62,538 nucleotides of DNA from Propionispora vibrioides. GTDB lineage: Bacteria > Bacillota > Negativicutes > Propionisporales > Propionisporaceae. Shown here one piece after another: positions 6,309-33,306 of this stretch. The notes under the pieces were generated by a model. That model searched no databases and was not told the DNA's origin. It worked only from the letters and a program-made list of their open reading frames with translations. The translations under genes and the position numbers were made by a program. Each line of letters starts with the position of its first letter. Positions within the stretch are counted from its first letter, which is position 1. Where the stretch lies: NCBI RefSeq assembly GCF_900110485.1, contig NZ_FODY01000010.1, forward strand, positions 1 to 62,538, read 5' to 3'.

Positions 6309-7220
6309 TCAGGTTGGCCGGGCGGCTACCGTACAATTGCGTCCCGCCTGCTTGGCCTGGTATAAGCGTTTGTCGACCTGATCGACCAGTTGGTGAAAAT
6401 CTGTTTCCTGGCCGGTGAACATGTAGACCCCGAAGCTGGCTGTGATGCACAGTTCGCCGGCTGAAGTGGGAATGGAGGTCTGTTCGATGGTTTTACGAAG
6501 GGTTTCTGTAATATGATAAGCCTGCGCTTCCGAACAATCACTTAAAGCCAATAAGAATTCTTCGCCGCCATAGCGAGCGACCCAGTTTTCCTGTTTATGC
6601 CGCACATGCTCGTGCAACTTCAGGGCAAAAAATTTCAATACTTCGTCGCCGACGGCGTGCCCGTATCTGTCGTTTACCTGTTTAAAATAGTCAATATCGG
6701 TCATGATCAGGGAAAAAGGCCGGTTATTCTGCCGTACCCGGGCAATCTCCAATGGCAGCTGTTTGTCGATATAACGCCGGTTGTACATGGTGGTTAAGGC
6801 GTCGCGAAATACCAGATGGTAAAGATTATTCACAAAGTGATAGGTGAGGGAGTTGGTTTCTTTGGGTGCGGTCAACGCATGTTCCAGCGCCTTGTCTTCT
6901 ACACAGGTAATGAGCTCTAAGGTCTGAAGCTGTCCGGATATTTCCAGCGGAATAGCGGTGATGAGAAAGAATTTTCCCTCCACGGCTTCAATGCGGACAA
7001 GAATTTGCCGGCAGCGGACAGCCTCCAGACACATGCAGTTCTCGCAAAACGACTCGGCAGTTCCGCAGCGGGAAAAAATGGCATGATGAGGAGAAGTCCC
7101 GGGGGACTGGCAGGAAATAAGCGGTTGATGGGGTGCTGTCGGTGAAGCGGAGATAATTCTTGCTATATCGTAATATTTGGCTAATACCTTTAAATCGGTG
7201 GGAAGAAAGTCGCGAATCAA
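6309..7220 (-). CDS. Diguanylate cyclase with Cys-rich N-terminal domain
   Basis: 303 aa. Residues ~130-300 are a GGDEF domain with metal-binding TDIDYFKQVND and the active-site loop RYGGEEFLLAL, so synthesis of c-di-GMP is expected. The position of the inhibitory RxxD site reads KQEN, so product inhibition through a canonical I-site is unlikely. The N-terminal ~125 residues have no membrane segment and carry a Cys cluster (SRCGTAESFCENCMC, then C at ~63 and ITC ~104), suggesting a metal- or redox-sensing input. The start is TTG at 7220, chosen because AGGAGG lies 8 bp upstream. Confidence 0.88.
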   Translation of the reverse strand: MIRDFLPTDLKVLAKYYDIARIISASPTAPHQPLISCQSPGTSPHHAIFSRCGTAESFCENCMCLEAVRCRQILVRIEAVEGKFFLITAIPLEISGQLQTLELITCVEDKALEHALTAPKETNSLTYHFVNNLYHLVFRDALTTMYNRRYIDKQLPLEIARVRQNNRPFSLIMTDIDYFKQVNDRYGHAVGDEVLKFFALKLHEHVRHKQENWVARYGGEEFLLALSDCSEAQAYHITETLRKTIEQTSIPTSAGELCITASFGVYMFTGQETDFHQLVDQVDKRLYQAKQAGRNCTVAARPT

Positions 7221-7564
7221 TGGGATTGCCTCCTAGCAATAAGCCGGCGGACTTACGGCAACGGAACCGAGGTCGGTTACCGGAGGCCGTTTGACGTAAG
7301 GGTGGTTGTTCCGGCACATCTGTGGTACTATATAATAAGGACAATTGTCCAATATTGTTGAAAAATGTTTATAAAGCGCACAAAAAATCTATTATATTCA
7401 TTATGACAGCTAATCAGGCCGCTTACAATCTCTCCTGTGTACAATCATTTTGGGAAAATAGGAAAAAATACTATCCCATGGGGATAGTAAAAAATAGATA
7501 AAAAGGCATGGCTAATGTCCTTTTTTGACAGGCCGGCCTTTTAACGATAAGGGAGGGGGCATGG
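7221..7564. other. Divergent intergenic region, promoters expected
   Basis: 344 bp between the divergent diguanylate cyclase and C39-like genes with no ORF I would support. It contains GTGGTACTATATAATAAGG (TATAAT-like) near 7320 and a dyad TACTATCCCATGGGGATAGTA at 7471-7491 flanked by A-runs, which could be an operator or weak terminator. Confidence 0.4.
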
Positions 7565-32286: not shown

Positions 32287-32526
32287 ATGAGTGAGCGACA
32301 GATGGTCAGCGCAACAGAACTGGCTAAAATGGGAAAATGTGAGCAGCAGTTGGTTTATGATGCACAATACGGTGAGGATAAGAAGCTGACCGAGGAATAC
32401 ATTCGTCGGGGAAACCGGAGTCATGAGCAATTTGCCTGCCACCTTATGGGTGTTAGGCAAGGCTGGTTTAGCCGCTTGCTGGCTTGGCTGCTGCGTCTGT
32501 TGTGCGGCCGCGGGAGACGGCCGTGA
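32287..32526 (+). CDS. Split Cas4-like nuclease, N-terminal gene
   Basis: 79 aa. VSATELAKMGKCEQQLVYDAQYG with one Cys, followed by RRGNRSHEQFA, resembles the start of Cas4/Dna2-type PD-(D/E)XK nucleases (S..D......CPR.......G...H). It ends in a basic hydrophobic tail (FSRLLAWLLRLLCGRGRRP). Its TGA stop overlaps the next gene's GTG (GTGA). The upstream spacing shows a weak ribosome site. The nuclease lobe is encoded by the following frame. Confidence 0.6.
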   Translation: MSERQMVSATELAKMGKCEQQLVYDAQYGEDKKLTEEYIRRGNRSHEQFACHLMGVRQGWFSRLLAWLLRLLCGRGRRP

Positions 32527-32993
32527 GCGGCGTCTTTTGTCTGCTGCTGGGTGGTGCTTTTTATCTCTGGTACCGGCGGCGGCAGGCCAGGCTCACGGTG
32601 TACCGGCTTGAACCGTATCTGAAGATCCTGGAGCCTATTCCGCTGTGCGGTGCGCCCGATGTCGTCTGGCGACGGAAAGGCAGTTCGACCTTGATAGTCG
32701 GCGATTACAAGAGCCGAGCCAATCACCGGATTTACGAGTCCGACATCATCCAACTATCGGTATACCGGTTTTTATTGCTGCATACGCAGGAAAAGGCTGT
32801 TGCCGATTACGGGTACATTCATTTTAACGATGGCAGCCGCCGGCGGGTCAAGCTGCTGCGGGAAAAGCAGATCAGTAAGTTGTATGAACGGTACAGAAAG
32901 GTTCTTGCCGGCAACATCGAACCGTCGAAAGTCTGCCGGAACGAATATTGCCGCCATTGCTCTCACCGGGCGATTTGTAATAAAAAGAATTAG
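32523..32993 (+). CDS. Split Cas4-like nuclease, C-terminal gene with membrane anchor
   Basis: 156 aa from a GTG that overlaps the previous stop. Residues ~3-18 are hydrophobic (VFCLLLGGAFYLWY), a likely membrane anchor. GAPDVVW and LIVGDYKSR form the PD and (D/E)xK motifs of the nuclease core; IIQLSVYRFLL supplies the QxxxY motif; and the C-terminus has CRNEYCRHCSHRAIC, matching the iron-sulfur cysteines of Cas4/Dna2/AddB proteins. No cas genes or CRISPR array are present, so a repair or RNA/DNA-processing role is more likely. Confidence 0.7.
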   Translation: MSGVFCLLLGGAFYLWYRRRQARLTVYRLEPYLKILEPIPLCGAPDVVWRRKGSSTLIVGDYKSRANHRIYESDIIQLSVYRFLLLHTQEKAVADYGYIHFNDGSRRRVKLLREKQISKLYERYRKVLAGNIEPSKVCRNEYCRHCSHRAICNKKN

Positions 32994-33099: not shown

Positions 33100-33306
33100 A
33101 TGCACGGTCACATCCCTTTTTTCGGTATGGCTTTTGGCGGATTTCATCTGATTTTTGCCATCGTCTTTTTGTATTTGTTTTATAATATATCAAAATCCCT
33201 GCAGCGTATTGCCGCCGGGATGGAAAAGAAAGAGATAAAGCTGCAGTTATTGGCGAATGATGAACTGGATCAAGCAAAGGACAAGAGCGAAGAAGTTAAG
33301 CCGTAA
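33100..33306 (+). CDS. Small membrane protein (68 aa), unknown
   Basis: MHGHIPFFGMAFGGFHLIFA and a single hydrophobic segment to ~residue 30 (FAIVFLYLFYNI), then an amphipathic charged tail (KSLQRIAAGMEKKEIKL, KDKSEEVKP). AGGAGG lies 9 bp before the ATG. It may be an envelope or sporulation-related small protein. No family was recognised. It is convergent with a CorC-type gene and shares its terminator. Confidence 0.65.
   Translation: MHGHIPFFGMAFGGFHLIFAIVFLYLFYNISKSLQRIAAGMEKKEIKLQLLANDELDQAKDKSEEVKP

Follow-up and report, generated by a model that had tools for sequence, protein, structure and literature searches.

The window analysed here is a 62,538-nucleotide stretch of DNA from Propionispora vibrioides (genome G000, rated 99% complete), and it carries two short overlapping genes on the forward strand, to which the window coordinates below refer. 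The first, ORF1 (32287..32526), starts with ATG and encodes 79 amino acids that correspond to the N-terminal half of a nuclease of the Cas4/Dna2 type followed by a C-terminal amphipathic basic helix. The second, ORF2 (32523..32993), starts with GTG and encodes 156 amino acids comprising a predicted N-terminal membrane helix, a PD-(D/E)XK core and a C-terminal cluster of three cysteines. They are joined by a GTGA stop/start overlap at 32523..32526, in which the TGA of ORF1 (32524-32526) runs into the GTG of ORF2 (32523-32525), as the preliminary description of this DNA had claimed; ORF2 is read in frame -1 with respect to ORF1, and the overlap is open in both. A ribosome-binding-like GGGAG, read from the sequence at 32512..32516, stands 6 nt upstream of the GTG.

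When the two translations are read side by side, the motifs of the nuclease are found to be divided between them, again as first described. In Cas4-type nucleases, residues of the types discussed here (C18, G42 and H46 on one chain; D46, K63 and the cysteines on the other) bind the Fe-S cluster or belong to the catalytic site. ORF1 contains C18 (codon 32338..32340), which aligns with the N-terminal cysteine of Cas4 and is the predicted first ligand of a 4Fe-4S cluster, and the GNRSH sequence G42-x3-H46 (32410..32424), the RecB/Cas4 catalytic histidine motif; its C18, R41-G42-N and H46-E47 are the motifs that would be expected in ORF2 but are absent from it. ORF2 contains G43-x-P-D46 (32649..32660) with the metal-binding aspartate, the (D/E)xK catalytic motif G60-D61-Y-K63 (32700..32711), the motif Q77-L-S-x-Y81 (32751..32765) and the cysteines C143-x2-C146-x5-C152 (32949..32978), which are predicted to be Fe-S ligands 2-4. 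In an alignment of 16 diverse ORF1s only C18, G42 and H46 are invariant, and the invariant residues of 16 ORF2s are D46, K63 and C146; the Q77-Y81 motif and all three cysteines are invariant in 11 sequences from the class Negativicutes. C143 and C152 are absent solely from the ORF2 form of IncC plasmids (see below), so the full cysteine cluster is not universal.

The assignment of ORF2 to the Cas4-like nucleases, also part of the original description, is upheld by matches above the cut-offs of two families, PF12705 PDDEXK_1 (6.9e-11, 43 bits against a cut-off of 22) and PF01930 Cas4 (1.1e-5, 26.1 bits against 22.7). Both alignments begin only in mid-profile, at position 104 of 247 and position 57 of 160, respectively, which indicates that ORF2 lacks the N-terminal part of the domain. 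ORF1 of the window has no significant family match on its own; profile comparison with Cas4 N-termini gives weak hits (E 0.09 and 0.013) that are nevertheless in register, and the ORF1 of a relative, genome G484, matches Dna2 (PF08696) at 3e-4, slightly short of the cut-off for that family. When the two halves of G484 are joined, the Cas_Cas4 score climbs from 33.3 to 41.8 bits and the match then covers positions 3-158 of 160, whereas a control in which a shuffled ORF1 was joined to ORF2 scores 33.6 bits; the gain from joining is small for G000 and for genome G705. Among the PADLOC models the best matches are to Cas4 (7e-11) and then, more weakly, to DruK (1.3e-5), and a sequence search of the PDB with the joined profile gave marginal matches to Exonuclease V and nothing better. 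The AlphaFold2 model of ORF2, based on three sequences, is weak (pLDDT 56, with core residues 51-120 at about 64-82); Foldseek searches with it place Cas4 from Cas4-Cas1-Cas2 complexes first (E 1.3e-3), followed by AdnAB, ACE1 and Dna2. Taken over both chains, the pair thus contains the core, the GxxxH motif with the first cysteine and the three-cysteine cluster of a Cas4/RecB-type nuclease, but at every locus found these elements are split rather than united in one polypeptide.

To establish whether the split is conserved in relatives, we searched 380 genomes of the class for ORF2 and read the neighbouring DNA for ORF1. Strong ORF2 matches occur in the family of the window and in six others; weaker matches proved on reading to be ordinary single-chain Cas4-like genes or were left unclassified. 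Intact adjacent pairs are present at ten loci in six families, invariably in the order ORF1 then ORF2, and no fused or single uninterrupted ORF1-ORF2 gene was found among the relatives. The congener G001 has the identical two frames and GTGA junction at ~90% identity to the window, and comparison of the two (NG86) gives dN/dS values of 0.19 for ORF1 and 0.16 for ORF2, so both frames are translated as protein and both are under purifying selection. The junction itself varies: a 4-nt overlap is seen in G000 and G001 (GTGA) and in G493 (ATGA), G477 has an 18-nt overlap, and elsewhere ORF2 starts 2-4 nt past the stop in different phases. In some relatives the ORF1 stop is followed by an ORF2 start in the same frame, giving three junction phases overall, and several have GGAGG ahead of the ORF2 start where the window has GGGAG. 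The two halves are, in other words, separate translation units.

Either half alone was encountered in these ~380 genomes solely in G683, where ORF1 is lost, G476, where the contig ends, and G686, which holds a relic; G471 has a disrupted ORF1 together with a second broken copy of the pair (L019/L052 and L030). The damaged copies in G471, a member of a related genus, suggest ongoing loss of the cassette, and G471, G683 and G686 are all compatible with decay, the pair in G476 being severed by the contig end. No conserved neighbouring genes or operon context were found around the class pairs, the surroundings of which vary by family. In a third congener, G002, the L,D-transpeptidase gene and the 68-aa gene that flank the pair are in order with neither half between them, which marks the pair as an accessory cassette. 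The syntenic site in G002, from the L,D-transpeptidase gene to the 68-aa gene, holds a different tiny ORF, MLIHLPCRGQVIFEHGIGKCSSCGKEIKVKISNK. In the window the 68-aa ORF lies at 33100-33306; it has a hydrophobic N-terminus, very strong interspecies conservation (dN/dS about 0.02) and no credible family.

The same arrangement is found on plasmids of another phylum. A plasmid search with a long ORF1 from the class matched 78 plasmids, and both halves are present at all 14 of the Pseudomonadota loci that we read, including that of a Dyella plasmid, where a CFI-box protein near the ORF2 match proved on reading to be ORF1. The genes share an ATGA overlap on Rhodanobacter, Acidovorax, Burkholderia, Denitratisoma, Marinobacter and Aeromonas salmonicida plasmids and an 8-nt overlap on those of Methylophaga and Vibrio tubiashii; on an A. 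hydrophila plasmid a short gap lies between them, and on a Piscinibacter plasmid ORF2 is immediately downstream of ORF1. On the Dyella plasmid, two Xanthomonas plasmids and a Thioalkalivibrio plasmid, an unrelated gene separates the halves. In the last of these, pTK9001, it is a DUF4326 gene, and two DNA methyltransferase genes follow the pair. Annotated records name the halves separately, as 'CFI-box-CTERM' and as 'PD-(D/E)XK' or 'Dna2/Cas4', and the setting frequently includes mobI, genes for an S49 or M48 peptidase, and TraG genes.

More distant forms are likely to exist on IncC plasmids. A 173-aa relative of ORF2 with about 35% identity is present in 1128 plasmid records, mostly conjugative, and the ORF1 profile weakly matches IncC and Vibrio harveyi plasmids (E 6.5e-4 and 0.005). 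The matching frames read MTASVAATELAKLGKCEA...LRGEFAHF... and MNSVSATEMAKLGKCEK...LRGEFAHF..., respectively, and each has a C-terminal hydrophobic helix. The IncC candidate for ORF1 is a 95-aa protein encoded between mobI and repA in 1093 records; it is likely to be ORF1, with less certainty than the other ORF1s. We had considered the IncC ORF2 an orphan whose partner had been lost, an idea dropped once this likely ORF1 was found beside mobI. WP_000127321.1 (mobI-repA) is likely to be a distant form of ORF1, and WP_000648873.1 one of ORF2. Both proteins have a hydrophobic helix at the end where it would be expected, but they are encoded about 5 kb apart and annotated as hypothetical, and the cysteine cluster of the ORF2 form is incomplete. 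On the IncC plasmid NZ_CP096355.1, for example, candidate ORF1 lies at 1481-1768 and candidate ORF2 at 6865-7386, ~5 kb downstream. Neither half is obviously present in a published TraDIS exclusion list for IncC (PMC11493245, Table 1), in which the matching of gene numbers is uncertain.

Hydropathy analysis shows that the junction is flanked on both sides by hydrophobic and basic segments, as had been noted at the outset. On the ORF1 side this is the C-terminal helix GWFSRLLAWLLRLLC (32461..32505), which is amphipathic and may act as a membrane-surface anchor; on the ORF2 side it is a predicted signal-anchor helix followed by RRR (32529..32573), from which a cytoplasmic C-terminus is expected. 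A hydrophobic N-terminus is present in all ORF2 homologues compared, and in the relatives with a short ORF1 the C-terminal helix has a hydrophobic moment of 0.72-0.92. The preliminary description spoke of an inserted membrane segment. The predicted ORF2 helix at the cut agrees with this, but most ORF1 relatives continue from the Cas4-N half into a CFI-box domain (NF041770; 13 of 16 ORF1 homologues match, with 68.5 bits for G475 against a cut-off of 40), and at that cut-off the domain is not present in the ORF1 of the window. The ORF1s without it (those of the window, G001, G705, G484 and G479) all end in an amphipathic basic helix. CFI-box-CTERM domains also occur on unrelated proteins; on a 5.2-kb plasmid of Acinetobacter lwoffii (locus L077, 919-1782) one follows a TPR-like protein, which suggests that the CFI-box is a general C-terminal module. 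On hydropathy, both halves are thus predicted to be placed at the membrane.

We propose, with a probability of about 0.78, that the locus encodes a two-subunit, membrane-associated Fe-S nuclease assembled from split genes. The main argument is that exactly the Fe-S and catalytic residues of Cas4 are kept on the two chains, which would therefore form one active site. ORF1 would supply the GxxxH motif and the cysteine that is the first Fe-S ligand, and ORF2 the metal-binding aspartate, the (D/E)xK and QxxxY motifs and the remaining three cysteines. Their genes overlap or lie close together, and translation of the two is probably coupled. The N-terminal helix of ORF2 would hold that chain in the inner membrane, with the nuclease domain in the cytoplasm. 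ORF1 would sit on this membrane or within it, attached by whichever element a given relative has: the C-terminal helix, the CFI-box domain or a membrane helix. Meeting at the membrane, the chains may make up a whole Fe-S nuclease of the Cas4/Dna2 kind, which would cut or resect nearby DNA. Of the alternatives put forward in the preliminary description, a membrane-tethered nuclease of two subunits is the one that gains good support, as the split is kept in the ten class loci and on the plasmids of Pseudomonadota.

The competing explanation that survives best, although we consider it rather unlikely, is that ORF2 is a minimal membrane nuclease in its own right and ORF1 a separate protein of Cas4-N-like fold that acts in regulation, inhibition or localisation. 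The 5-kb distance between the likely IncC halves fits this idea, as do the weak match of ORF1 alone to Cas4 and the retention of ORF2 without ORF1 in G683, and an inhibitor of a DNase would be co-inherited too. However, the invariant residues of ORF1 are exactly the ones needed to make the Cas4 cluster and active site whole, which a mere regulator need not keep, and ORF2 begins where the Cas4 N-half stops.

It is very improbable that programmed -1 frameshifting within the overlap yields a single protein, as the -1 position of ORF2 and the two open frames of the window might suggest. The overlap contains no X XXY YYZ slippery heptamer in the window or in the congener, in relatives an in-frame stop precedes a fresh start, or a gap with GGAGG separates stop from start, and the gene that lies between the halves on some plasmid relatives refutes frameshifting for the family.

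We give as little weight to the possibility that the pair serves CRISPR adaptation in trans. Its Cas4-like character and the presence of cas1 in G000, G001, G484 and G705 could be taken in its favour, but five of the nine pair-bearing genomes tested lack cas1, so the pair is not a general component of CRISPR adaptation; moreover, it has no conserved cas neighbour and scores 39.4 bits against the 65-bit cut-off of the cas4 equivalog model TIGR00372. The earlier statement that no CRISPR or cas gene is present is correct for the window as regards cas1, but the organism is not CRISPR-free, as G000 has two cas1 genes, on contigs C9 and C12. A phage origin was also considered and rejected: ORF2 had no phage match, ORF1 had one weak match in its CFI-box part, and no viral contigs were found.

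Cas4 is normally one chain and decayed copies do exist in the group (G471), yet a recent frameshift mutation or assembly error in an ordinary single-chain gene has a negligible chance of being right, given that the same split recurs in a separate genome from a different species, in six families and in another phylum, with varying junctions and with both halves under purifying selection.

The two-subunit nuclease that we propose can be compared with several known systems. Cas4, solo-Cas4 and the pfam12705 Cas4-like nucleases (surveyed by Hudaiberdiev et al. 2017, PMC5704561) share its order of motifs (first cysteine, GxxxH, D, (D/E)xK, QxxxY, three cysteines), its PF12705/PF01930 matches and its solo and mobile-element occurrence. 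Their known members are single chains without a membrane anchor, whereas the window pair has the domain divided after GxxxH and before the metal-binding aspartate, with membrane-associating segments at the cut; the main text of the survey does not mention a split or transmembrane form. The Fe-S domains of ACE1 (the Argonaute-associated Cas4 family), AdnAB/AddB and Dna2 are of the same PD-(D/E)XK fold class, but the nuclease domains of AdnAB/AddB and Dna2 are single-chain and fused to a helicase, and ACE1 is a single chain linked to Argonaute. In literature coverage that leaves out most subscription journals and preprints, the two-gene design is apparently undescribed, and no paper on the 'CFI-box' was found.

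The most likely job of such an enzyme would be to act on DNA entering or leaving the cell, in defence or in competition among conjugative elements. Its presence on conjugative plasmids, the patchy, decaying chromosomal cassettes and the predicted membrane placement favour action on DNA that crosses the membrane, which is probably its role. A Cas4-like nuclease lowers plasmid transfer or maintenance in Synechococcus (PMC10653904), a precedent that makes a role in DNA transfer plausible. More tentatively, the pair may represent a widespread two-component membrane nuclease, with one shared Fe-S cluster and active site, that controls DNA passing the membrane at the site of transfer and occurs on many conjugative plasmids (>1000 sequenced IncC plasmids) and, in this class of Bacillota, in free-standing cassettes on the chromosome.

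A pair that is never fused in distant bacteria and on conjugative plasmids is a real design and not a broken gene. A natural split through the active site and metal cluster of a Cas4-type nuclease, conserved as it is, was unexpected, and it is directly testable because nuclease activity would be expected only with both halves. It provides a functional hypothesis for one carrier of the undescribed CFI-box domain and for the two genes, annotated as 'hypothetical' in the backbone of IncC resistance plasmids, that likely encode the halves there, and it hints at a checkpoint for DNA transfer that is bound to the membrane.
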